A stretch of DNA of 64,000 nucleotides from Gammaproteobacteria bacterium. GTDB taxonomy: Bacteria > Pseudomonadota > Gammaproteobacteria > Xanthomonadales > SZUA-36. Below, one piece after another: positions 15,556 to 26,618 of the stretch (within the stretch, counting starts at the first letter, position 1; the number at the start of each line of letters is the position of its first letter). A program made the position numbers and the translations under genes. The notes under the pieces are model-generated. The model did not search any database. It was not told where the DNA came from and was given only the letters and a program-made list of their open reading frames with translations. The stretch is from NCBI GenBank assembly GCA_024279945.1, contig JAJRRA010000076.1, forward strand, positions 1 through 64,000, read 5' to 3'.

Positions 15556-16554
15556 TCAAACCCCGTGTTGCGCCAGGGATCCGGTCCGCGTCGTACGCGT
15601 CAGGGCCACCTGCCTGAGAAGCGCCAGCAGTATCAGGCCGGCCAGCCAGTTGTGGGCGACTGCCAGGCTGATCGGCAGACCGGTCAGGATCGCGGTGATC
15701 CCGACCGAAAATTCCAGCGTGACCAGTACCAGTGTGATCAGCGCTGTCATCCGGTAACGTGGTCCGGCGCTTAGAGCGGTTAATGCAGCGAGCAGGGTTA
15801 CCACCAGTGTAAGGACTGCGCCGATGCGGTGGGCCTTGTGGATGGCAAGACGTTCCTGCCCTCCGATAGCCTGGCCCATTGGGGTAACTTCATGCTGTCG
15901 TGACAGATCAAAAGCAGTCAGCAATGCACTGCCTGGTAACCAGCTACCGTGACAGTCAGGGAGCGTCTGGCAGGAAGTGGCTGCGAAGTTGGCGCTGGTC
16001 AACCCGCCCAGTACGATTTGCATGGAAAGCACGATGGTGGCGAGTATGGCCGTGCCTCTGACCGCAGTTGCCTTGTCCGGCGCTTTGGCTGCCACCCTGG
16101 AATCAGGCTTGAACACCATCCATCCCAGCAGGCCCAGCATACTGAAGCCGCCGGCCAGGTTCCCCATCACCACAGCCGGATTGTGCAGGCCGCCGGAACG
16201 GATGCCCAGTACCGCCAGATAAACCGTTAGGCCGAGCAGGGTCAACGCGATGAGCCGCTGCCTTTTCCTCCGCATGGCGATGAAAGTCAGAAACACGATA
16301 AGCAAGCCCAGAATGCTGGCCACCAGACGATGCAGAGGCGTTGCCCACGCCATGGGCTTATTGGCCTGTTCGACCATCCGCTGGTAGGCGTTGCCGGATG
16401 TGGCAGGCAGGCTGACTGAAGTTGCTGCACCTATATGCCCATAACATTCAGGCCAATCGGCACAACCAATGCCTGAGTGCGCCAGTCTCAGGTAGGCACT
16501 CAGGGACACCAACAAAATAACCAGCAGCAGTGAAATTTTAGCCAGGCTGTTCAT
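15556..16554 (-). CDS. ctaA: Heme A synthase
   Basis: 332 aa integral membrane protein (COX15/CtaA) that oxidises the C8 methyl of heme O to give heme A for cytochrome oxidases. Eight helices are predictable. The N-terminal AYLRLAHSGIGCADWPECYG with the cysteine pair, the histidines in MAWATPLHRLVASIL, the second-half CQTLPDCHGSWLP and HKAHRIGAVLTL, and the final VAHNWLAGLILL all match. It lies near a heme-copper cluster on the opposite strand, which hints that one of those enzymes could use heme A. Confidence 0.93.
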   Translation of the reverse strand: MNSLAKISLLLVILLVSLSAYLRLAHSGIGCADWPECYGHIGAATSVSLPATSGNAYQRMVEQANKPMAWATPLHRLVASILGLLIVFLTFIAMRRKRQRLIALTLLGLTVYLAVLGIRSGGLHNPAVVMGNLAGGFSMLGLLGWMVFKPDSRVAAKAPDKATAVRGTAILATIVLSMQIVLGGLTSANFAATSCQTLPDCHGSWLPGSALLTAFDLSRQHEVTPMGQAIGGQERLAIHKAHRIGAVLTLVVTLLAALTALSAGPRYRMTALITLVLVTLEFSVGITAILTGLPISLAVAHNWLAGLILLALLRQVALTRTTRTGSLAQHGV

Positions 16555-16565
16555 CGAATATCACA

Positions 16566-17222
16566 TCAGTCTTTAATTCGTTTGAGTTGGATGGCTTGCC
16601 CCCGGACCAGGCGTACATAGCGGGGAGAATACTTCCATTCCACGCGGTCCAGGCCGTTGCCGAAATTCCACAACCAGGCCGAATTCCAATGGAGTTGGTA
16701 GTCGTTGCCAGACCAGTATTCACCGGCCTGAGTATAAGGGAAATATTTCATGTTAATGGTGGGTGGTGTGGAGGTCTTGCGCGGGTCGCTGATGGAGCCC
16801 AGTTCGTCTCGAGTGGGCATGCGCCAGTCATTGAAACCACAGTAGCCGGCCGCATTGACCGCCTCAACCACAGCGTATGTATCGCAGGCGCTGCCCGCGC
16901 ACTCCCCACCATCAGCTTTGCCGCGGTAATCCAGTTCTTCACCGACGGTTTCATCTGGGCTGAACCAGGAATAGGTATTGCGCCAGTCGTGGAGTCCGGG
17001 CGTGTCGGTTTTTACTTCCCACACCAGTCCGATGAATTGATCCAGCACGCAGGGCCCTTGCTGGCCCGCTTCCAGTTGCTCACCGTTGGCGTCCAGCGCG
17101 ATGTACTTGGTGTCGTGAATTTCCGGTCCGGGGCCAGGCTGGGAGTTACAGGCACTGAGAAATACCAGCAGGCCGGGGGCGGCAATTTTCAGAGCCGGGA
17201 TAATTGATGATATTTTTTTCAT
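16566..17222 (-). CDS. Lcl-domain (DUF1566) lipoprotein
   Basis: 218 aa from the ATG at 17222, chosen because it gives a lipoprotein signal, MKKISSIIPALKIAAPGLLVFLSAC in outline with LSAC as lipobox. The mature part carries the Lcl C-terminal domain: FIGLVWEVK, NAAGYCGFNDWRMPTRDEL and EYWSGNDY, followed by RYVRLVRG. In other bacteria such domains bind glycans or contribute to adhesion. Here it is an isolated lipoprotein just upstream of ctaA (11 bp). Frames further upstream to 17381 are unlikely to be used. Confidence 0.8.
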   Translation of the reverse strand: MKKISSIIPALKIAAPGLLVFLSACNSQPGPGPEIHDTKYIALDANGEQLEAGQQGPCVLDQFIGLVWEVKTDTPGLHDWRNTYSWFSPDETVGEELDYRGKADGGECAGSACDTYAVVEAVNAAGYCGFNDWRMPTRDELGSISDPRKTSTPPTINMKYFPYTQAGEYWSGNDYQLHWNSAWLWNFGNGLDRVEWKYSPRYVRLVRGQAIQLKRIKD

Positions 17223-17356
17223 GATTGACTTATCTTTTGCATCGAAGCAATACTGATTATGAGGTATCGGCAAAGATAACTCATGACTGTGGGCAAAGAT
17301 AACTTTTTTCACGAGAGATTGCAGATGCTGATAAAAATAAACAGACTTGGCAGCAG

Positions 17357-17431
17357 AATAAATCAGGTATATGCTTTGCATGATAAATCAGGTATGTGTC
17401 CTGCATCATTAATAAGGTATATGACCTGCAT
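17357..17431. repeat. Three tandem 25-bp repeats in the promoter region of the NO/oxidase operon
   Basis: Units at 17357-17381, 17382-17406 and 17407-17431 share the frame AGGTATATG followed by TGCATC (AGGTATGTG in unit 2; TTTGCATG at the end of unit 1). The period is exactly 25 bp. They lie 85 bp before the first gene of the operon. Reading the reverse strand, each unit gives GATGCA-N4-ATATACC, loosely like half-site patterns reported for the NO-sensing repressor NsrR; this resemblance is only suggestive. Confidence 0.6.
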
Positions 17432-17515
17432 CAATTTGCCGCAAGAAAAAGTTTGATAGATTTAATATGCCGATCTGTTTTCTGGATGTTTGTTAATCTG
17501 ACTGGACCTTCAACT

Positions 17516-17680
17516 ATGAACCAAGAAGTTACCGACACGGAAAAAAATGAGCGCGTTCCTGTTATGCAGCGCATCATTGATAATCCGTTCTTACTGCTAT
17601 TCATCGGTGTGGTCGTTCCCACCGTTTTTTATGTTATTTGGGGAATCATGGAAATTATTACCATTCCCATGGCCCCCTGA
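17516..17680 (+). CDS. Small single-span membrane protein at the head of the norSY-like operon
   Basis: 54 aa from the ATG at 17516 (earlier in-frame starts run through the promoter repeats). Residues 1-20 are polar, then PFLLLFIGVVVPTVFYVIWGIMEII is one membrane helix. It is 39 bp before the CuA subunit gene. Small one-helix subunits occur in B-type heme-copper oxidases (subunit IIa of the Thermus ba3 enzyme), so it may be a structural subunit; no sequence family is recognised. Confidence 0.7.
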   Translation: MNQEVTDTEKNERVPVMQRIIDNPFLLLFIGVVVPTVFYVIWGIMEIITIPMAP

Positions 17681-17719: not shown

Positions 17720-18271
17720 GTGAGCTCCATACAACCGCCTTCTGAGACGATTTGGTGGAAACAACCACTGGATCGGGTCGAAGGGACCTGGATCGGCATC
17801 GCGCTGGTCTGGTCCTTGATTATGTTCTTCATGATGCCCCTGTGGCACATCTACGGTAAGCAGAATCTTTCCAATGAAGCATACCGGACGACGCCCGAGG
17901 CCTTCATGGCCAAAACGCAGGCAATGGTCGATCAGTACACGATCCGTACCGAGACCAACCAGAATGTGCCTGTGGTTCGTCCACCACCAGGCAGCGATGT
18001 CTACTTGATTGCCAGATTATGGCAATGGTGGCCGCTACTGGAACTGGAGAAAGGCCAAACCTACCGTTTGCATATTTCGTCCCTGGACTGGCAGCATGGT
18101 TTTTCCCTGCAACCGGTCAATATCAATGCCCAGATTCTGCCCGGGTATGAAATGGTTTTGACCGTCACACCTGACACCAGCGGGGATCAGACGATTATCT
18201 GTAATGAGTATTGCGGAATCGGCCATCACACCATGGTCGGTAAAATTTACATCACGGAGGGCGGATCATGA
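17720..18271 (+). CDS. CuA-containing subunit II of a heme-copper enzyme (NorS-like)
   Basis: 183 aa from a GTG, with AGGTG just before. One N-terminal helix (GTWIGIALVWSLIMFFMMPLW) anchors a periplasmic cupredoxin. The dinuclear CuA site is complete: H126, C161, E163, C165, H169 and M172 in CNEYCGIGHHTM. This subunit would take electrons from cytochrome c. The order subunit II, subunit I, senC matches the norSY-senC cluster described in ammonia-oxidising bacteria for the sNOR nitric-oxide reductase. Overlaps the next gene by 4 bp. Confidence 0.85.
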   Translation: MSSIQPPSETIWWKQPLDRVEGTWIGIALVWSLIMFFMMPLWHIYGKQNLSNEAYRTTPEAFMAKTQAMVDQYTIRTETNQNVPVVRPPPGSDVYLIARLWQWWPLLELEKGQTYRLHISSLDWQHGFSLQPVNINAQILPGYEMVLTVTPDTSGDQTIICNEYCGIGHHTMVGKIYITEGGS

Positions 18272-19980
18272 AAACCCAGGAATTCAGGATTTGCCCGGAA
18301 TCGGGATTGCAATTCCACAAACCGGCGGAAAGGCTGATGCGCTTCCATGCTGTAGCAGCAATTGTGTGTCTGCTCATTGGTGGTATCACCGCCCTGCTGG
18401 TAACACTCACGCGCTGGCCTGCCGTTCACCTGCTTCCGGCAGACAAGTTCTATATGCTTTTAACCACGCATGGCATCAACATGCTGATTTTCTGGATCAT
18501 CTTTTTTGAGATGGCCGTATTGCATTTCTGTTCGTCGACATTGCTTCGTTGCCGTATTGCGACACCAAAACTGGGCTGGGTCGGTTTCGGCCTGATGGTG
18601 ACCGGTGCGGTTATCAACAACCTTTCGGTGTTCAGCGGCAAATCCTCGGTCATGATGACCTCGTATGTGCCCATGCCGGCAGAACCGACGTTCTACCTGG
18701 GTTTGATCCTGTTTGCGGTCGGAGCACTGATTGGTTGCTTCATGTTTCTTGGAACCCTGGTGATCGCCAAGGAAGAGAAAACCTATGAAGGCTCCATCCC
18801 GCTGGTTACTTTTGGCGCGTTGACAGCCTGCATCATCGCCATCTTCACCATCTCCATGGGCGCGGTGATTCTGATTCCGACTTTCCTCTGGTCAGTTGGT
18901 CTTATTTCCAATATCGATGCACCCATGTACCGCTTGATCTGGTGGGCGTTTGGACATTCCTCACAGCAGATTAACGTGGCGGCCCATGTGGCGGTCTGGT
19001 ACGCCATTGCAGCCATCGTCTTTGGCGCAAGACCGCTGTCTGAAAAGGTCAGCCGTACTGCATTCATACTGTACATCGCCTTCCTGCAACTGGCGTCCGC
19101 CCACCATCTCCTGGTGGATCCCGGTCTCAGTTCAAGTTGGAAAATCTTCAATACATCGTATGCCATGTACCTTGCGGTGCTGGCCAGCATGATCCACGGT
19201 CTCACCGTGCCCGGATCCATCGAAGTGGCGCAACGGGCCAAGGGGCTGACCAAGGGTCTGTACGAATGGCTGCGCAAGGCGCCCTGGGGTAACCCGGTAT
19301 TTTCCGGCATGTTCCTATCGCTGATCGGGTTTGGTTTCATTGGTGGAATTTCCGGTGTGGTGATGGGCACCGAGCAGATTAATATCATCATTCATAACAC
19401 CATCTACGTACCGGGACATTTCCATGCCACGGTCGTGATCGGAACCACGCTGGCCTTCATGTCACTGACTTACTTCCTGATTCCGGTACTTTTCCGGCGC
19501 CAGGTATTTTTGCCGGGTCTGGCCAAGTGGCAACCGTATATTTTCGGTATCAGCATGATGGTCTTCACTCTGGTGATGATGGGCGCGGGAACACTTGGCG
19601 TTGAGCGCCGCCACTGGGATATGGCGTTCACGGATGCGGCCATAGGCTTCGATTATCCAGCCAGCGCTTACGCCTTGATGGGGCTGGTTGGCATCAGCGG
19701 TGTCGGCGCTGTCCTGGGCGGAGCAATTTTCGTCCTGATTGTAGTGGTCTCTGTGTTCCTGGGTAAACGTGTTGAATCTGAGTCCAACTACGGTGCGGAA
19801 CCTACACGCCTGATGAAGGCACCGCCGATTGTTCTGCCGGAAGGTGGGCATGTTGCCGCGGGCAAATGGGGCTTTGCCGCTCCGGGTACTTTTGCCCTGG
19901 CGATGCTCTTCCTGGCCATATTCGTAGCGTATTACGCGGTCAACTGGAAGTATCTTGCTTCAGTCTGGCCTCTGGCTTAA
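18268..19980 (+). CDS. Heme-copper subunit I lacking the active-site tyrosine (NorY-like, probable NO reductase)
   Basis: 570 aa with 12 or more helices. Metal ligands are present: H68 and H386 for the low-spin heme, H384 for the active heme, and H230, H279, H280 for CuB. The AHHLLVDPG stretch is close to the B-type (ba3) oxidases. In oxygen reductases H230 is followed four residues later by the cross-linked tyrosine (GHPxVY); here the motif is GHSSQQ, with glutamine 234. Loss of that tyrosine is a shared trait of nitric-oxide reductases. With the CuA subunit and SenC next door I infer an sNOR-type enzyme, but an unusual oxidase is not excluded. Confidence 0.85.
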   Translation: MKTQEFRICPESGLQFHKPAERLMRFHAVAAIVCLLIGGITALLVTLTRWPAVHLLPADKFYMLLTTHGINMLIFWIIFFEMAVLHFCSSTLLRCRIATPKLGWVGFGLMVTGAVINNLSVFSGKSSVMMTSYVPMPAEPTFYLGLILFAVGALIGCFMFLGTLVIAKEEKTYEGSIPLVTFGALTACIIAIFTISMGAVILIPTFLWSVGLISNIDAPMYRLIWWAFGHSSQQINVAAHVAVWYAIAAIVFGARPLSEKVSRTAFILYIAFLQLASAHHLLVDPGLSSSWKIFNTSYAMYLAVLASMIHGLTVPGSIEVAQRAKGLTKGLYEWLRKAPWGNPVFSGMFLSLIGFGFIGGISGVVMGTEQINIIIHNTIYVPGHFHATVVIGTTLAFMSLTYFLIPVLFRRQVFLPGLAKWQPYIFGISMMVFTLVMMGAGTLGVERRHWDMAFTDAAIGFDYPASAYALMGLVGISGVGAVLGGAIFVLIVVVSVFLGKRVESESNYGAEPTRLMKAPPIVLPEGGHVAAGKWGFAAPGTFALAMLFLAIFVAYYAVNWKYLASVWPLA

Positions 19981-20068: not shown

Positions 20069-20932
20069 ATGAAGCTAACCCGTACACACTGCTGCCGTAT
20101 TCAGGCTGGAAAATGTCTGTTGGTTCTTATGTCCGGTCTGCTGCCCATGACTGTTTTCGGGCAGACAGGCAGTAAGGATAATCCTGCTGCTTATGATGCG
20201 GATAAAACCGTTCAGGTCTCACAGGCGGCGGTGGGAAATACCTTGCAGGATTACGAATTCACTGACCGTGATGGCCGCACAGTCAGCCTGTCCCGGTATC
20301 GGGGTAAACCGTTGCTGATCAGTATGATTTTTACATCCTGCCACCATGTCTGTCCTGCCATCACGAAACACCTGGCAACTGCAGTAGATGCAGCCCGCGA
20401 AGCGCTCGGTGATGACAGTTTCCAGGTGATCACGGTGGGTTTTGACACCCCGGTCGATACTCCGGATGCAATGCGGGTGTTTGCGAACCAACAGGGTATT
20501 GATGATCCCCATTGGGATTTCCTCAGCGCTTCGGCGGAAACCATTGCCGGTCTGGTCAATAACATCGGTTTTGTTTATTATCCATCTCCACGCGGATTTG
20601 ATCACATCAACCAGGTGACGGTTGTCGACCGGGATGGTGTCGTTTACCGCCAGGTATACGGTGCGGCTTTCGATTTACCCTGGCTGGTGGAGCCGCTGAA
20701 GGAATTGGTATTCAACCGTCCGCAGCCCGGCAGTCACTTTACATCGAATATACTGGGCCGGATCAAGTTGTTCTGCACCGTCTACGACCCCAATACAGGC
20801 CGTTATAAATTCGATTACTCCCTGTTTGTTGGCATGGGCATCGGTCTGCTGAGCGTATTGGCGGTTATCACTTACCTGTTACTGGAATTCTTCCGCGCAC
20901 GGCGCAGAAAAAAAGGCTCTGATCTTGCATAG
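20069..20932 (+). CDS. SCO1/SenC copper-delivery protein
   Basis: 287 aa. After a signal sequence ending near VFGQ, the thioredoxin-like domain carries the copper site SCHHVCP (C-x3-C) and the distal histidine in GFDHINQV. A C-terminal membrane helix (FVGMGIGLLSVLAVITYLLLEF) is an addition beyond the shortest SCO proteins. It would load CuA of the adjacent subunit II. Starts 17 bp after a terminator T-run and overlaps the next gene by 8 bp. Confidence 0.9.
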   Translation: MKLTRTHCCRIQAGKCLLVLMSGLLPMTVFGQTGSKDNPAAYDADKTVQVSQAAVGNTLQDYEFTDRDGRTVSLSRYRGKPLLISMIFTSCHHVCPAITKHLATAVDAAREALGDDSFQVITVGFDTPVDTPDAMRVFANQQGIDDPHWDFLSASAETIAGLVNNIGFVYYPSPRGFDHINQVTVVDRDGVVYRQVYGAAFDLPWLVEPLKELVFNRPQPGSHFTSNILGRIKLFCTVYDPNTGRYKFDYSLFVGMGIGLLSVLAVITYLLLEFFRARRRKKGSDLA

Positions 20933-23033
20933 GATATTGCTTGGGGCGTTGCAAAAAACCGGACGGGTCATTTTTGAATACTTGCGCAGGGTTCTCGATC
21001 GCGGTTTCGGCCCTGAGCTGAACCCGATGAATCATCTGGGTGCCCTGACCATCTATTTTTTCTGGATCGTCACGGTCAGTGGGATCTGGTTGTTTCTCTT
21101 TTTTAAGACCAGCGTTAGCGGCGCCTATCAATCGGTCGAGTACCTGACTCACCAGCAGTGGTACCTGGGTGGCGTGATGCGCAGTCTCCACCGTTATGCT
21201 TCGGATGGGGCCATTATTACCCTGGCGCTCCACATGATCAGGGAATTTTCCTTTGATCGGTATCGCGGCAATCGCTGGTTCAGCTGGATCACCGGCATTC
21301 CCCTGTTGTGGATGGTGATTCCACTGGGTATCACCGGCTATTGGCTGGTTTGGGACCAATTGGGCTGGTACGTTGCACTGACTTCCGCCGAGTTGCTGGA
21401 CTGGCTACCGATCTTCAGTGATTCCATGGCGCGTAACTTCCTCAGCGCCGATGTACTCAGTAACCGCTTTTTTACCCTGATGGCGTTTGTGCACCTGATC
21501 GGTCTGCCCCTGTTCCTGGTGTTTGGCATCTGGCTCCATGTGTTGCGCATCAATGGTCCGCGGATCAATCCGCCCCGGGCTCTGATGGCGGGCAGCCTGG
21601 CGGCGATGACGCTCCTGTCCTTTGTTTACCCTGCTCTGAGCCAGGGTGAAGTCGATATGACGCAAGTGCCGCAGAGTCTGGGTCTGGACTGGTACTACTT
21701 GCTGGTCTATCCCCTGGTCAAGGCCTGGTCGCCGGCCTGGGTGTGGGGGCTTTTGTTCGGCGTCAGCCTGTGGCTGTTCATGGCGCCCTGGTTGCCACCA
21801 CAGCGGTCTAAATCGGCCGCGATGGTTGACCTTGATAACTGTAACGGCTGTGCACGCTGTTCTGATGATTGCCCCTTCGGCGCCATCACCATGATGGAGC
21901 GTAGCGATGGCCTGGCGTACGAAAAAGAGGCCGTGGTTGATCCGTCGCTTTGCCTGAGTTGTGGCTTGTGCGTTGGCTCATGCCCCACGGCAACCCCGTT
22001 CCGGCGGCATACTGCCCTGTTACCGGGTATCGATATGCCTGATCTGTCAGCCGCCGCACTGCGGGAAACCATTCTGAAAGTCTCACAGGGGCTGAGTGGG
22101 AATCACCGGATTCTGGTCTTTGGGTGCGAAGGTCAGAAACAGACTGCAAAATTGAAATCCAGGCTTAATGACAAAGCAACCGCCACGGTAGATATCATCT
22201 GCGTAGCGCAACTCCCACCGGCCTTTCTTGATTTCATTCTTAACCGTGACCTGGCGGACGGTGTTGTGCTGGCCGGTTGTGGTGGCGGGGAATGTCTGTA
22301 CCGTTTTGGTGAACTGTGGACCAGTTTGCGCGTTGAGCGCCAACGCGACCCCCGTTTACGTAAACGCGTGGATACACAGAAGATTGCCCTGACGTGGCAG
22401 GATCCGTGGTCCGGCTTGTCTGATGTCTCCTCGGTCGTTGCAGCATTGCGGAAATCTCTCCCGGAGACCCCTGCTGCCGGACACGTGACCGATGAGAACA
22501 TCTCTTTACCTCCTGTCCGGGGAACATCATGGAAGTTGCCGCTGACGCTTACCGCCTATGCGCTGTTTGTCATTTTCGTGGGGTGGTTCTCCGTCTGGCC
22601 GCGGCACCAGTTGCTGAAACAAAACCAGGCCATGGTCTCCCTGTCTTTCTCTCATGCAGGTCATCGGGTGGGGGATTGCCGCAAGCTTTCCCAGGAAGAG
22701 TTGAACAAGCTCCCGCCGAATATGCGTAAAATTGACGATTGCCCGCGTGAACGATTGCCGGTTCGTATTATCTTTCGACTGAATGGAAAAATCCTGTACG
22801 AAGTCAGCAGACCACCCACTGGCCTGTGGAGTGACGGTGAGTCCAATATTTACCAGCGCATGGTGATTCCCGCCGGTAAGCAGAAACTGTTTATCGGTAT
22901 GATCGACAGCAACCGTGAACAGGGCTTCGATTACTCCTTTGAACAGGAACTTGACTTCTTACCCGGCCAGCATATCGTTGTGGAGTTTAATAATACGCTG
23001 CAATCTTTTGTCCTTATTGGGGGATCATCATGA
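20925..23033 (+). CDS. Fusion: cytochrome b, two [4Fe-4S] ferredoxin motifs, FlpD/MvhD-like domain, periplasmic tail
   Basis: 702 aa from a TTG (AAAGG 8 nt before); no ATG occurs before residue 35. Residues 35-290 are a cytochrome b/b6-like membrane domain with heme ligands H89/H103 (13 residues between) and H190/H205 (14 between). Residues 300-355 hold two clusters, CNGCARCSDDCP and CLSCGLCVGSCP. Residues 395-485 match the hydrogenase iron-sulfur (FlpD/MvhD) domain with C401, C426, C452 and C457 (GCGGGEC). A further helix at about 538-558 leads to a periplasmic C-terminus with no recognised fold. It could link quinol to a cytoplasmic iron-sulfur carrier. Coupled to senC and to the hemerythrin gene by overlaps. 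Confidence 0.85.
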   Translation: MHRILLGALQKTGRVIFEYLRRVLDRGFGPELNPMNHLGALTIYFFWIVTVSGIWLFLFFKTSVSGAYQSVEYLTHQQWYLGGVMRSLHRYASDGAIITLALHMIREFSFDRYRGNRWFSWITGIPLLWMVIPLGITGYWLVWDQLGWYVALTSAELLDWLPIFSDSMARNFLSADVLSNRFFTLMAFVHLIGLPLFLVFGIWLHVLRINGPRINPPRALMAGSLAAMTLLSFVYPALSQGEVDMTQVPQSLGLDWYYLLVYPLVKAWSPAWVWGLLFGVSLWLFMAPWLPPQRSKSAAMVDLDNCNGCARCSDDCPFGAITMMERSDGLAYEKEAVVDPSLCLSCGLCVGSCPTATPFRRHTALLPGIDMPDLSAAALRETILKVSQGLSGNHRILVFGCEGQKQTAKLKSRLNDKATATVDIICVAQLPPAFLDFILNRDLADGVVLAGCGGGECLYRFGELWTSLRVERQRDPRLRKRVDTQKIALTWQDPWSGLSDVSSVVAALRKSLPETPAAGHVTDENISLPPVRGTSWKLPLTLTAYALFVIFVGWFSVWPRHQLLKQNQAMVSLSFSHAGHRVGDCRKLSQEELNKLPPNMRKIDDCPRERLPVRIIFRLNGKILYEVSRPPTGLWSDGESNIYQRMVIPAGKQKLFIGMIDSNREQGFDYSFEQELDFLPGQHIVVEFNNTLQSFVLIGGSS

Positions 23034-23431
23034 CACTGATCAAGTGGCAAGCCTCGTTTTCTCTTGGCATTCCCTCAGTGGATCATGAACACCGTGAATT
23101 GATTGGGGCGATCAACACGGTTTATGACAGCATGATCAATAACGCCGACCCCGCGATCATCGAGTCATGTCTTGAAGATATTTATGCGGATGTTTCTTCA
23201 CATTTTGCGCTCGAAGAACGCCATATGCGTGAAGCGGGCTACGGGGAATATGAGGCACACAAGGAGGAGCATGAGGAATTGCTCGACCAGATACGGAACA
23301 TGATGGATCTGTTCGAAGAGAACCCGGACTCGGGCCGGATCATCTTGCAGCAGGAGTTATCAGACTGGTTCAGTGTCCATTTTTCCACTTTCGATGCCCG
23401 TCTCCACGACAAGCTCGGCGATCATCACTAA
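23030..23431 (+). CDS. Bacteriohemerythrin
   Basis: 133 aa four-helix protein with a di-iron site. Ligands in order: H in DHEHREL, H and E in HFALEERHM, H in AHKEEHEEL, and the last H with D in VHFSTFDARLHD. Such proteins bind O2 and, in several bacteria, NO. The ATG overlaps the fusion gene stop (ATGA), so both are co-translated. This context favours NO or O2 capture for the neighbouring enzymes. Confidence 0.92.
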   Translation: MTLIKWQASFSLGIPSVDHEHRELIGAINTVYDSMINNADPAIIESCLEDIYADVSSHFALEERHMREAGYGEYEAHKEEHEELLDQIRNMMDLFEENPDSGRIILQQELSDWFSVHFSTFDARLHDKLGDHH

Positions 23432-23658: not shown

Positions 23659-25029
23659 TTACCATGATTTTTTGCCACGGATAGACTTGTAACAAACCAG
23701 CAGAAAGAGCAGCCCGCCGATAACCGAGATCAATCCGCCCAGACCCATCAGACCCATGCCGGCGATTTCACCTAGGCGGTCAACGCCCTGGGCGAGACCG
23801 GCTGTTTTGCGTTGGACACCATAACCGCCCGACCACGCCATGCCAAGGATATGCAGCAATTGCCCCCCCCCATAGAGGTAGGGTTGCCAGGTGGCCATGC
23901 GCGGCGGAATGACGCCAAAGCCCAGTCGGGGCAGCAGATAATAAGAGAGGCCCATAAAGGCGATGGTCACGCCGACGGTGGAGCCGTGATAGTGGGCGGG
24001 GATCACGATATCCAGGCCGGAAATCAGAAATCCCAGTATGCCGCCTGCGGCGAACAGGCCCAGCGAAGACAGTAGCGCGGCCCGCAGGTACTTTCCTTCG
24101 TTGGCAAAATCTTCCGGTGGTTTGCCGGCTTTGAATACGCTCACCAGTACGGCCAGCCCCAGTGGCAGGCTGGACAGACCGCCGTATTTCATTAATTCGG
24201 TAAATGCCAGCCTGTGTCCCGGTGAGATGATATCGTGCGCGATGTAAAGAAAAGGCACGGTGATGATCGGAAGAGCCATGATAATGAGAAAGGTTAGGGT
24301 TAATCTGGGGGTTAGTTCAAACCGGCAGCCACTGGCATGAGCCAGGACAACCCAGGCCACCATCATCAGTAGCGTGTGCGTGAACTGAAGTACATGGCCT
24401 CCTCCCCAGAACAGGAATTCAAAATAAGCCTGGCCATCCATGGTGGACGGGATGCCGGCCCAGGAGGCAATAAATGCGGCAATGGCTACAGCAGTTATCA
24501 AGGTTGACAGGGTGATTCCAAATTGCAGAGCGCCCGTGCCGTCCAGATCTTGCCTGATTCCGTTTCGCGTAATTGCGGAGCGCAGAAGATGCGACGCGAT
24601 CCCTGCCGTGAACAGGCCCAGGCCGGTGTAGAACACCGGGTGACGTAACAGGGGGACATAATTGTTCATTAAGGGATCAGCTGCGCCGACGAAAGGCGAA
24701 ATAATTACGATTGCCGTCCCCGCTGCAGCAAGAAGGAAAGAAAACCGGTCCCAGCCGGGCAAGTCACGACTGGAACTCAGACTCCACATAACGCCGGCCA
24801 TCGAAAGCAGCCAGATCAATACCGACAGATCGACATGAACCACCAGCGCGACCCGGAAAAAATCAATAAAGGGGGTCATTTCCTGGATGGTCGGCGTTCT
24901 GGCCAGCACCAGCAGGATTGAGAAAATGCCGGCGCCGACCAGGGAGGCCAGGCCCAGCATCAGCCAGGCAGTCGTGGTTTTCCTGACATTTTCACTGCTG
25001 ATGTGCAGTTGGTAATCTGCGGCGTCCAT
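23659..25029 (-). CDS. Divergent heme-copper subunit I with altered CuB ligands (NOR-like)
   Basis: 456 aa, about 12 helices. Low-spin heme histidines H65 and H348 and the active-heme histidine H346 (PAHYHGS) are present. The CuB site is odd: H212 lies in GHVLQF, without a tyrosine at the +4 place (phenylalanine), and the usual histidine pair of helix VII is H265-D266 (IAHDIISPGH). A His-to-Asp change here recalls the proposed minor NO-reductase families; which one needs a tree. No subunit II gene is adjacent, only the 62-aa protein. AGGAAA precedes the ATG. Confidence 0.8.
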   Translation of the reverse strand: MDAADYQLHISSENVRKTTTAWLMLGLASLVGAGIFSILLVLARTPTIQEMTPFIDFFRVALVVHVDLSVLIWLLSMAGVMWSLSSSRDLPGWDRFSFLLAAAGTAIVIISPFVGAADPLMNNYVPLLRHPVFYTGLGLFTAGIASHLLRSAITRNGIRQDLDGTGALQFGITLSTLITAVAIAAFIASWAGIPSTMDGQAYFEFLFWGGGHVLQFTHTLLMMVAWVVLAHASGCRFELTPRLTLTFLIIMALPIITVPFLYIAHDIISPGHRLAFTELMKYGGLSSLPLGLAVLVSVFKAGKPPEDFANEGKYLRAALLSSLGLFAAGGILGFLISGLDIVIPAHYHGSTVGVTIAFMGLSYYLLPRLGFGVIPPRMATWQPYLYGGGQLLHILGMAWSGGYGVQRKTAGLAQGVDRLGEIAGMGLMGLGGLISVIGGLLFLLVCYKSIRGKKSW

Positions 25030-25126: not shown

Positions 25127-26482
25127 TCATCTCCGGCCCATCCGGCGCAAGGCCTGGGGAGTAAATCTGGATGGATTCATGTATTGGTTAAAAGGTGGCA
25201 CCGGCTTGCGGGGATTCAGGCGATAGGAAACAAAGCGGCCCGATTGCAGATCATGGTGGATCTCGATTGTAGTCCACAGTGTGGGTACGTCATAAAACAC
25301 GATGGGATGAGCCTCAGAGAACCGCCACAGTTCATCCTTTGCATCATAATGGTCCGCCATCAGTATTTGGTAGCTGTCTTCGTCCAGGTAATAGGTCCGG
25401 TGGGGATTGATATGCCGCATACCCTTTTTGAGCCGTGCCTCGACTACCCAAACGCGATGCAGTTCATAGCGCAGGTATTGCGGATCGAGGTGGCCGGCCT
25501 GCACCAGGTCATCGTTGTCAAGATCAGCACTATGGACCCGGTAGGCGTTGTAGGGCACGTACATTTCGCGTTTGCCGGTGAGTTGCCAGTCGAACCGGTC
25601 CAGTGCCCCATTGAACATATCCGTCATATCACTGACGTGCAGGCCATCGCTGGCGGCGCTTGGGCTGTCGTAGGCGATGTTTGGTGCACGGATCACACGT
25701 CGCTGGCCCGGGTTATATACCCATGCGGTGCGGGGCTGGGCAAGCGAGTTGAGTGATTCGTAGATCAGCACGGAAGAACCGGCCAGCCGGGCAGGTGAAG
25801 TCGTTTGTTGCAGGAAATACAGCAGGTAGTTGTCGATGCTCTCCAGTGTGGCGTCCGGTTGGTAGTAGAGTCCCAGCGTCCACACCGTCATGGTCACTTC
25901 GGTGAATGAGCCACTGGCGGTAGCTGCGGCCAGACTGATGTGTCGTATGCTACCAGTGCCTTTAAAGCGCAGTCTGTGGTTCCAGATCAGTTCCTGGCCA
26001 TTTTCCGGGAAGGGAAATGGCAGGCCTTCGGCCACCCCCTCAACCGCTTCACCGTTTTCTGTCAGCATTCCCGTGCGCCCATTTTCCAGGGTCTTCTGAT
26101 ACACACGCTGCGGCAGTGCCGCGCTTCGATGCGTTGGATAGACATCGAGAAAATAGTCTGCATAGCGTTGCAGCATGGCGAGATGCCCTGCAGATAACTG
26201 TCCGGAGAAATCTTGCATATTTTCCCGGTCAATGCGAAACAGTGGAGTTTCACCCTTGAACGGATCCGGGTGGTGATCGCCGGGCTTGTAGTTCTCTGGT
26301 GCCTGGCTGATACCACCGGTCCACGCCGGTATCGTTCCGGAGGCATTTCCGGCGCGTTCGGCACCGACCGGCGTCAGGTCGCTCGAGAGGCGGGGGACAT
26401 CATTGGGTCTGGCGGCCGCAGAAAGCCCACTGGTCAAGATACTTAAGAGCAGGCTCAAGTAAAAAGGAAATACATTTCTCAT
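25127..26482 (-). CDS. DUF1329 outer-membrane-associated protein
   Basis: 451 aa from the ATG at 26482, which begins a signal peptide (FPFYLSLLLSILTSGLSAAA). The N-terminal LTPVGAERAGNASGTIPAWTGG followed by FRIDREN and the late YDVPTLWTTIEIHHDLQSGRF are hallmarks of DUF1329, a beta-rich family resembling lipoprotein-sorting (LolA/LolB) folds that often accompanies RND proteins or lipid-degradation loci. Function unknown. Nothing else shows in the 97 bp to the heme-copper gene except a weak TTGACG-type promoter. Confidence 0.85.
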   Translation of the reverse strand: MRNVFPFYLSLLLSILTSGLSAAARPNDVPRLSSDLTPVGAERAGNASGTIPAWTGGISQAPENYKPGDHHPDPFKGETPLFRIDRENMQDFSGQLSAGHLAMLQRYADYFLDVYPTHRSAALPQRVYQKTLENGRTGMLTENGEAVEGVAEGLPFPFPENGQELIWNHRLRFKGTGSIRHISLAAATASGSFTEVTMTVWTLGLYYQPDATLESIDNYLLYFLQQTTSPARLAGSSVLIYESLNSLAQPRTAWVYNPGQRRVIRAPNIAYDSPSAASDGLHVSDMTDMFNGALDRFDWQLTGKREMYVPYNAYRVHSADLDNDDLVQAGHLDPQYLRYELHRVWVVEARLKKGMRHINPHRTYYLDEDSYQILMADHYDAKDELWRFSEAHPIVFYDVPTLWTTIEIHHDLQSGRFVSYRLNPRKPVPPFNQYMNPSRFTPQALRRMGRR

Positions 26483-26618
26483 TAGACCCCAGATACGTTT
26501 GAACTTAGTCACAAAAGATACCAGGCGGCACAAAGATTCTGCCTGATGTACATAATGTTCACATATTTTCCGGATATATTACACTGGTAAGGTTAACCGC
26601 AACTTCCGGGATACGATC

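Follow-up and report, generated by a model that had tools for sequence, protein, structure and literature searches.

A cytochrome b protein with [4Fe-4S] and FlpD domains, inherited with eNOR, as a candidate electron-transfer module for nitric oxide reduction

What would a protein that joins a cytochrome b to iron-sulfur motifs and an FlpD/MvhD domain be doing among genes for nitric oxide (NO) reduction? The question is raised by one reading frame in a 64,000-nucleotide stretch of gammaproteobacterial DNA (the window; Table 1). Its product, here called the module, runs from the cytochrome b through two [4Fe-4S] motifs and FlpD/MvhD to an additional membrane helix and a tail with a beta-sandwich fold; RefSeq labels its parts 'cytochrome b N-terminal domain-containing protein' and 'hypothetical protein'. 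An earlier note on this DNA had read the locus as a putative NO-reductase operon and its product as possibly a quinone-linked electron module. Our analysis supports those two points; it does not support the single polypeptide as a rule or the usual partners of FlpD. We put at roughly 50% the probability that this is a dedicated membrane electron-transfer module of proteobacterial eNOR, through which electrons would travel towards CuA from the quinone pool and/or a cytoplasmic donor.

Table 1. Coordinates of the module, its domains and neighbouring genes in the window
Feature	Coordinates	Strand	Basis or remark
COX15/CtaA-type (haem A synthase-like) protein	15556..16554	-	Pfam E 8.9e-44
Small protein	17396..17680	+	Conserved; head of many of the clusters
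eNOR subunit II (by signature), CuA motif CNEYCGIGHHTM	17720..18271	+	TIGR02866 CoxB-like E 2.4e-9, below its cut-off
eNOR subunit I (by signature)	18268..19980	+	Pfam COX1 E 6.6e-63; helix VI FGHSSQQI
SCO1/SenC protein	20069..20932	+	Pfam E 4e-14; overlaps module start
Module: cytochrome b / 2x[4Fe-4S] / FlpD / membrane helix / periplasmic beta-domain	20925..23033	+	702 aa, TTG start
b6-type four-helix cytochrome b, residues 33-205	21021..21539	+	His invariance; cytochrome b6 profile match
Region homologous to b6f subunit IV (two helices and a loop), residues 218-289	21576..21791	+	Profile match; D255-W256
Two [4Fe-4S] motifs, residues 306-353	21840..21983	+	Pfam Fer4
FlpD/MvhD domain, residues 396-491	22110..22397	+	Pfam; MvhD profile match; Cys 401, 426, 452, 457
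Membrane helix and beta-sandwich tail, residues 537-702	22533..23030	+	Separate gene in most relatives
Bacteriohemerythrin	23030..23431	+	NF033749 over cut-off
Divergent haem-copper oxidase-like protein (HCO2)	23659..25029	-	Pfam COX1 E 1.7e-12

An intact frame with a separable tail

The frame is intact across 702 codons, its TTG being the earliest possible start downstream of the preceding stop, and the AlphaFold2 model of the whole protein has a pLDDT of 92.6 and a pTM of 0.89. Genes overlap on both sides: the 3′ end of the SCO gene lies over the TTG start (20925-20932), and the module's stop shares the sequence ATGA with the ATG of the bacteriohemerythrin gene (23030-23033). One-piece homologues, 59-73% identical, occur in seven related genomes, and fused forms in 11 of the 80 named loci (the best 80 of 211 confirmed contig loci), two sets that partly overlap. 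They exclude a frameshift between domains or an assembly artefact, a concern voiced in the earlier note. The reading frame, the Pfam matches and residue conservation bear out that note's picture of one protein with haem-b His, both cluster motifs and four FlpD Cys.

The single polypeptide is real in the window, but it reflects a lineage-specific fusion; as a rule the two genes stand apart. In 67 of the 80 named loci (best 80 of 211), the tail is a gene of its own of about 165 aa, and fusion as the norm is therefore rejected. Since the fused and split states need at least four changes on a quick 84-row tree, the fusion is recurrent or reversed. At split loci, the genes overlap in 35 of 60 measured pairs, an approximate figure because a script took the start codon nearest the alignment as the start. 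Two loci in which no tail was seen (L072 and L091) are second copies, in genomes that also hold a tail-bearing module inside an eNOR cluster; the tail gene is thus kept with the eNOR-side copy.

The claim of an extra membrane helix with a periplasmic tail stands, given the high-confidence model (mean pLDDT of the tail, 94.6). Within the tail, two Cys are almost invariant: C606, like R608 and R610, occurs in 79/79 sequences and C585 in 78/79. Against known periplasmic families it gave no Pfam match above cut-off, and even with E values as high as 5 allowed, neither FixG nor FixH matched any of 67 tails, a search that leaves room for a distant relation. We therefore do not assign the tail to FixH/CcoG or a known periplasmic family; the fold search gave generic beta-sandwiches only. 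The best fold match is the HGSNAT luminal domain (Foldseek E 8.3e-4; VIA Z 9.7, 3.1 Å, 97 residues), followed by unrelated beta-sandwiches, most at Z 6-8, and for this reason we draw no function from the fold. Toxins in the fold list share the sandwich shape only.

A b6f-like core with an exchangeable arm

Residue counts for the rest of the module come from 82 aligned sequences (the window and 81 copies), with two reductase-swapped copies left out; loci L001-L012, duplicates or off-family, were omitted from the conservation alignments and the tree. The N-terminal part matches Pfam Cytochrome_B (residues 30-209, E 3.4e-17) and solved cytochrome b6 (profile match over residues 33-205, E 6.2e-28), and residues 29-294 match bc1 cytochrome b at a structural Z of about 20. 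H89, H103, H190 and H205 are invariant (82/82), which predicts two bis-His haem-b sites; by bc1 homology, we take the ligand pairs to be H89/H190 and H103/H205. The following half resembles subunit IV of b6f (profile against 2e74_B, E 5.7e-6). Its loop at the place of the PEWY quinol site faces the periplasm, according to sequence and model, and holds a variant Asp-Trp, D255 and W256, invariant in 82/82.

The module thus shares with cytochrome b6f a four-helix cytochrome b6 domain with haem His, and subunit-IV helices with a PEWY-place loop. It differs in having both halves in one chain, a cytoplasmic FeS-FlpD arm, and Asp-Trp in place of Glu-Trp. It differs as well in the company it keeps: no Rieske motif (CxHxGC..CxCxxH) was found in the ORFs of the 81 stretches scanned and no Rieske Pfam match among ten window ORFs, both searches being at the level of the locus. 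A stretch here is the fetched locus with at most 10 kb on each side, not the whole contig. Judged from sequence and model, the module consists of a b6f-like core, a cytoplasmic [4Fe-4S]2-FlpD arm, and another helix followed by a beta-domain in the periplasm, the latter mostly encoded by its own gene.

In the arm, Pfam places the Fer4 motifs at residues 301-356, and all eight [4Fe-4S] Cys (C306, 309, 312, 316 and C343, 346, 349, 353) are invariant (82/82). FlpD is matched by Pfam (E 1e-5; 26.0 bits, above the 22.3 cut-off), and the family profile matches solved MvhD (9sw2_D, E 4.5e-12). Canonical FlpD has five Cys (CxxC, C, Cx4C). The module keeps four, lacking the second Cys of CxxC; Cys 401, 426 and 452 are invariant in 82/82 and Cys 457 is present in 81/82, and the four could bind one cluster. 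The domain is homologous to MvhD/FlpD, the carrier of HdrABC-MvhAGD, including three aligned Cys. Unlike that carrier, it is fused to a membrane cytochrome b, lacks one canonical Cys, and has no Hdr or hydrogenase recognised nearby, among the neighbours identified at related loci. The link to hydrogenase or formate dehydrogenase that FlpD usually brings with it finds no counterpart here, as neither these genes nor Hdr occur among the window's ten neighbouring ORFs. In the recurring neighbour families that were examined, nothing was recognised as a flavoprotein partner for FlpD.

Three clusters (L064, L087 and L130) each contain one copy in which a [2Fe-2S]-FAD-NAD(P) reductase stands in place of FeS-FlpD. 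On the quick 84-row tree, the swapped pair from L064 and L087 is sister to the FlpD pair from the same two genomes. This swap suggests that electrons are exchanged at the level of NAD(P)H.

Partnership with eNOR

In helix VI of subunit I, the enzyme encoded upstream of the module has Gln where an oxidase has Tyr. Gln at this active-site position is the diagnostic mark of eNOR subunit I (PMC8756737). HSSQQ or HASQQ occurs in 57/57 full-length subunit I sequences, the window counted; the adjoining cupredoxin/CuA subunit II has the form C-N-E-[YF]-C-x3-H-x2-M in 56/56. By signature, then, the neighbouring enzyme is eNOR, and with the near-perfect co-occurrence described below this upholds the NO-reductase operon. 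Described eNOR clusters likewise pair subunit II with a subunit I bearing the Gln signature; the sections of that paper cited here name only these two subunits with eNOR, and an appendix table includes a single ORF (RME88945.1) that combines cytochrome b6, DMSOR_beta-like and FlpD domains, for which no tie to eNOR was found (PMC8756737). In the literature searched, we found no description of the module with eNOR, although the main eNOR paper (Murali et al., PNAS 2024) may mention it, and the portions covered state no physiological electron donor for proteobacterial eNOR.

The module is inherited together with eNOR across many Proteobacteria. Cultured carriers include Defluviimonas sp. SAOS-178_SWC, whose cluster is on a plasmid, and Magnetovibrio blakemorei MV-1 (L050). 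Among 398 Pseudomonadota genomes, 34 have the module, 30 have eNOR subunit I and 29 have both, leaving five with the module alone and one with eNOR alone (Fisher p 8e-38, relatedness ignored). In the sole eNOR-only genome the contig stops directly after the SCO gene; of the five module-only genomes, four are 69-82% complete and one is 96% complete (6% contamination). For named loci (best 80 of 211) with at least 4.5 kb upstream, eNOR lies on the fetched stretch in 52/61; the other 9/61 are mostly Magnetococcales and Thiotrichaceae-type. Eighteen named loci lack eNOR on the stretch, four of them adjoined by cd1 nitrite reductase. Sixteen of their genomes were searched, leaving out the short contigs L013 and L048, and 14 carry eNOR elsewhere (13 near full length, one a short piece). 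This neighbourhood survey turned up no fusion in an unrelated operon with another proven role.

Could the module be an oxidoreductase between a cytoplasmic donor and quinone that only accompanies eNOR, keeping the quinone pool filled during NO stress without touching the enzyme? The swapped copy shows the Fer2-FAD-NAD order of NqrF, a subunit of an NADH:quinone enzyme, and module and eNOR sit on different contigs in 12 of the 29 sampled genomes with both, in addition to the nine loci noted above. We nonetheless hold this to be very unlikely in view of the tight co-occurrence, the SCO gene overlap in the window and the tail gene that stays with the eNOR-side copy.

Among the module's partners are a UbiA/heme O synthase-type gene, COX15 and SCO, the last on 63/80 stretches (best 80 of 211). 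Such maturation genes could point to an assembly factor, a transmembrane reductase that keeps Cu(I), SCO or CuA Cys reduced while eNOR matures, CcoG-like though unrelated to CcoG. CcoG/RdxA is a cupric reductase with two [4Fe-4S] clusters, a helix and a periplasmic beta-domain, encoded beside a haem-copper enzyme; the module has this same order and a haem-copper neighbour, and the nearly invariant Cys pair of the tail would suit such a role. It departs from CcoG/RdxA in its haem-b cytochrome and FlpD and in the lack of FixG/FixH matches among the 67 tails, and an assembly factor would have no need of a quinol-site half that is b6f-like and keeps invariant residues. The Thermus and Thermomicrobium plasmids bear on this in two ways. 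Their eNOR relatives (one record each) have no module gene nearby, which argues that the module is not catalytic there, but these enzymes also appear to do without it altogether. We consider an assembly role improbable. A subunit I match occurs in 24 plasmid records, and on these plasmids only Defluviimonas has the module. Given this and the Thermus and Thermomicrobium enzymes, eNOR may not require the module as an obligate subunit.

Other neighbours are consistent with a nitrogen-oxide setting. cd1 nitrite reductase (NirS), by direct search, is on 23/80 stretches (best 80 of 211) and also in the window's own genome, and a NirI/NosR-like protein and ApbE adjoin some modules. HCO2 is on 18/80 (best 80 of 211); its alignment has 17 rows for 16 distinct sequences, the window protein being entered twice. 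Cytochrome c is not regularly encoded in the clusters.

Possible electron routes

We think that electron transfer through the module probably connects eNOR with membrane quinones and with the cytoplasm. We imagine that quinone would bind at the periplasmic site, that two haems would cross the membrane, and that a flavoprotein working at the level of NAD(P)H would dock on the iron-sulfur/FlpD arm in the cytoplasm. The quinone pool and/or this cytoplasmic donor would send electrons towards the CuA of eNOR, whose subunit II the periplasmic beta-domain may help to dock. NO can inhibit the bc1/cytochrome c route, and NO reduction would in this way not depend solely on bc1 and cytochrome c.

This reading draws on the co-occurrence in 398 genomes and the synteny in 52/61 loci, on the quinol-site half with its invariant Asp-Trp, the bc1-like structure and the MvhD match, and on the reductase swap, the tail gene kept with the eNOR-side copy and the context of NirS, NirI/NosR-like protein and ApbE. 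The quinone link in particular is supported by the subunit-IV-like half, the eNOR signature and the co-occurrence. Against it stand the Thermus and Thermomicrobium enzymes without a module nearby, the five genomes with the module alone, the nine loci with eNOR off the stretch, and the lack of a recognised flavoprotein partner for FlpD. In the stretches scanned, neither a Rieske motif nor a regularly encoded cytochrome c bridges haem b to CuA, and we know of no precedent for direct transfer between the two. Because the window's genome also encodes a bc1-type cytochrome b, bc1 could feed eNOR via cytochrome c.

One can also envision quinol bifurcation, in which quinol is oxidized at the periplasmic side, one electron going to eNOR CuA in Rieske's stead and thereby driving its partner through the haems to [4Fe-4S]/FlpD, where NAD(P)+ or ferredoxin would be reduced as the low-potential acceptor in the cytoplasm. 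The retained quinol-site half with invariant Asp-Trp and the exchange of the arm for an NAD(P) reductase would fit, and hosts, by their record titles, include Gallionellaceae, Mariprofundaceae, Thioploca, Parabeggiatoa and Halothiobacillaceae, iron- or sulfur-oxidising groups that need reverse electron flow. Many other hosts, however, are alphaproteobacterial MAGs of unestablished physiology, so the lithotroph link is not general; [2Fe-2S]-FAD-NAD(P) modules usually run outward from NAD(P)H; and the stretches hold no Rieske-type acceptor. On balance we regard bifurcation as unlikely. A fuller form, an NO-respiring supercomplex, seems quite doubtful to us: CuA would replace Rieske, NO reduction would pay for NAD(P)H or reduced ferredoxin, the low-potential electron would be driven via the haems to an exchangeable head, [4Fe-4S]2-FlpD or [2Fe-2S]-FAD-NAD(P), and, where a lineage has two copies in tandem, these would pair as heterodimers carrying both heads.

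Bifurcation has a close parallel in what is proposed for b6f-like anammox complexes with NAD(P) oxidoreductases (PMC12954380). As far as the cited part of that work describes them, these Rieske/cytochrome b complexes (Kuste4569-4574 and Kustd1480-1485) share with the module a b6-like cytochrome b, a subunit-IV-like part, a cytoplasmic iron-sulfur/flavin module and a nitrogen-oxide context. They differ in including Rieske and multihaem cytochrome c, neither of which turned up as a regular element of the module clusters, whereas the module's partner is the CuA-bearing eNOR (PMC12954380).

To return to the dedicated electron module that we favour, eNOR is a recently recognised NO reductase, and its wide distribution makes it a potential source of N2O. 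The gene set described here offers a concrete electron-donor candidate for proteobacterial eNOR, one that can be put to the test. Should electron flow follow the anammox proposal, quinol chemistry of the b6f type would be coupled to NO reduction, and the head on the cytoplasmic side would be exchangeable.

The module, its core and its cofactor residues

The module (the 702-aa cytochrome b, [4Fe-4S], FlpD and periplasmic beta-domain protein and its relatives) had been presented in the earlier note as a single polypeptide translationally coupled to SenC and a hemerythrin; in the window the frame is unbroken and its ends overlap both neighbouring genes (table). The TTG is the first possible start 3′ of the preceding stop. 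Cytochrome_B, Fer4 (two stretches) and FlpD exceed their Pfam gathering cut-offs, and an AlphaFold2 model from a 112-row alignment, covering the residues 290-702 for which prediction had been suggested, is confident (pLDDT 92.6, pTM 0.89). The predicted topology, which loop charge counts fit on our reading, places the N terminus and FeS-FlpD in the cytoplasm and the tail (residues 537-702, its membrane helix included) on the periplasmic side.

The family profile matched a solved cytochrome b6 (E 6.2e-28, over profile positions 14-210) and MvhD (E 2.3e-13). A 19-sequence profile restricted to residues 205-300 matched b6f subunit IV (2e74_B, E 5.7e-6), aligning the Glu-Trp of PEWY with the family's Asp-Trp. 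The bc1 cytochrome b 9ftz_H superposes on residues 29-294 (VIA-align; Z 21.2, 2.9 Å, 257 residues). Because of these profile and structure matches, we take the core to be a b6f-like cytochrome b plus a subunit-IV-like half. In many rows of the VIA-align comparison the model range, reported by its ends alone, reaches about 564, so that a further cytochrome b helix seems to be matched by the membrane helix of the tail.

The alignment of 82 module sequences (the window's and 81 copies drawn from the named loci, the best 80 of 211 confirmed, with two swapped copies set aside) shows no substitution at the four haem His, at D255 or W256, at any of the eight ferredoxin Cys, or at FlpD Cys 401, 426 or 452; 81 of the 82 keep Cys 457. 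No Rieske motif was found in the ORFs of the 81 stretches (those loci and the window). Another, much higher-scoring FlpD domain lies elsewhere in the same genome.

Features and their positions
Feature	Position	Strand	Remark
Lcl_C-domain protein	window 16566-17381	-	adjoins COX15 gene
SCO1/SenC gene	window 20069-20932		end contains module's TTG
Module ORF	window 20925-23033	+	unbroken frame, 702 codons; TTG start
Tail residue 653	window 22881-22883		Gln
Bacteriohemerythrin gene	window 23030-23431		ATG overlaps module stop
HCO2, divergent haem-copper oxidase-like protein	window 23659-25029	-	
DUF1329 protein	window 25127-26533	-	other flank
Swapped copy, cytochrome b + [2Fe-2S]-FAD-NAD(P) reductase	L064:5990-7915	+	in eNOR cluster
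Swapped copy, same type	L087:6033-7955	+	in eNOR cluster
Swapped copy, same type	L130:6640-8631	-	in eNOR cluster
Tail-less second module copy	L072:9971-11530		away from eNOR cluster
Tail-less second module copy	L091:1096-2655	+	away from eNOR cluster
Other FlpD domain (L149)	G000 contig C87:4227-4604	-	829-aa frame, E 1.6e-42

Association with eNOR

The operon had been claimed as a putative NO-reductase operon, and the adjoining enzyme is, by its signature, eNOR, the CuA-bearing NO reductase. Helix VI of the window's subunit I reads FGHSSQQI; Gln at the Tyr place of oxygen reductases is the eNOR hallmark according to PMC8756737. This Gln is present in 57/57 full-length subunit I sequences, the window's included, and the CuA motif in 56/56 of subunit II.

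The neighbourhood survey proposed in the earlier note revealed a recurrent cluster order among the 80 loci (best 80 of 211), commonly small protein, II, I, heme O synthase type (UbiA), SCO, module, tail and hemerythrin, often with COX15 in gammaproteobacteria. On these 80 stretches, again the best 80 of 211, hemerythrin occurs on 46 (39 sharing the module's strand), cytochrome cd1 nitrite reductase on 23, including four from Magnetococcales without eNOR, and an HCO2-type protein on 18. Some clusters are flanked by a NirI/NosR-like Fer4_5 protein (our own naming), ApbE and Crp-type regulators. The window's genome encodes cd1 nitrite reductase, gave no match to Cu nitrite reductase, and holds four COX1-family genes, eNOR and HCO2 among them.

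In 16 distinct HCO2 sequences, the window's included, the haem His and helix-VI His are conserved; the helix-VII stretch has no conserved His (the window reads AHD), so two usual CuB ligands are not conserved and HCO2 is possibly a CuB-less or altered-site relative. The Lcl_C-domain protein recurs beside eNOR clusters (nine stretches with the window).

Among 398 evenly drawn Pseudomonadota genomes, the module (E <= 1e-60) was found in 34, eNOR subunit I in 30 and both in 29, on one contig in 17 of the 29. In the sole eNOR-only genome the contig stops 34 bases past the SCO frame. Completeness is 69-82% for four of the five genomes with the module only, and 96%, with contamination of 6%, for the fifth. 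Consistent recurrence of the fusion in unrelated operons with another proven role would have spoken against the original interpretation. Eighteen of the named loci (best 80 of 211) do lack eNOR on the stretch (up to 10 kb each side), yet 14 of the 16 genomes searched from these encode it elsewhere, 13 near full length. The module is a consistent companion of proteobacterial eNOR, an association for which we found no prior description in the literature searched.

Searching plasmid proteins throughout (E <= 1e-20) gave a single module, in a complete cluster of Defluviimonas sp. SAOS-178_SWC. Relatives of eNOR (43.7-47% identical) are also encoded on plasmids of Thermus and Thermomicrobium; neither of the two records examined shows the module near them, which counts against a universal role. 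Both subunits I (L142, Thermus thermophilus; L141, Thermomicrobium roseum) are annotated as cbb3-type oxidase, with a gene for nitrite reductase about 5 kb from the Thermus one.

Separate tails and exchanged heads

The one-polypeptide architecture is real in the window, and the original interpretation holds in part; the fusion itself is ordinary. In the named loci (best 80 of 211), 67 encode the tail separately, in a gene of some 165 aa, the module is in one piece in 11, and the tail is missing in two (L072 and L091), whose genomes each carry, within the eNOR cluster, a further module that has the tail and is accompanied by HCO2. The tail gene's start, as chosen by script, precedes the first gene's stop in 35 of 60 measured pairs; in L027, L029 and L046 a hemerythrin gene lies between the two. 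In a quick tree (84 rows) the fused and split states must change at least four times, and such recurring, or repeatedly undone, fusion is evidence that the two products act jointly.

The tail is predicted to be a beta-sandwich (pLDDT 94.6), with C606, R608 and R610 in 79/79 sequences and C585 in 78/79; no Pfam family exceeded its cut-off and the fold search gave generic matches only. Residue 653 is His in 68/79 tails, whereas the window protein has Gln, and a metal site at this place, if any, would not be universal.

In three loci (L064, L087 and L130) the copy on the eNOR side keeps the cytochrome b half, followed by Fer2, FAD_binding_6 and NAD_binding_1 in place of FeS-FlpD, with an FlpD-type second copy in tandem after it. 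The L064/L087 swapped pair is sister to the FlpD pair from these two genomes (SH-aLRT 99). An NAD(P) reductase can therefore take the place of the cytoplasmic head. Two FlpD copies stand in tandem in L026 (Mariprofundaceae).

A possible electron path

This head swap is the strongest clue to the partner of the FeS-FlpD arm. A flavoprotein partner would fit the methanogen MvhD, whose [2Fe-2S] gives electrons to the FAD of HdrA (PMC6019823). A reverse scheme, quinol bifurcation driven by its NO-reducing branch, seems unlikely to us; a published parallel is the proposal in PMC12954380 for anammox, pairing b6f-like complexes with NAD(P) oxidoreductases. That the module serves in assembly we consider similarly improbable. 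Taking the cofactor-type residues, the eNOR association and the exchangeable head as observed, and the topology as predicted, we propose instead that the head would exchange electrons with a cytoplasmic flavoprotein, that the haems b would bridge the membrane with quinone binding near D255, and that electrons may pass to the CuA of eNOR, with the tail serving as a dock.
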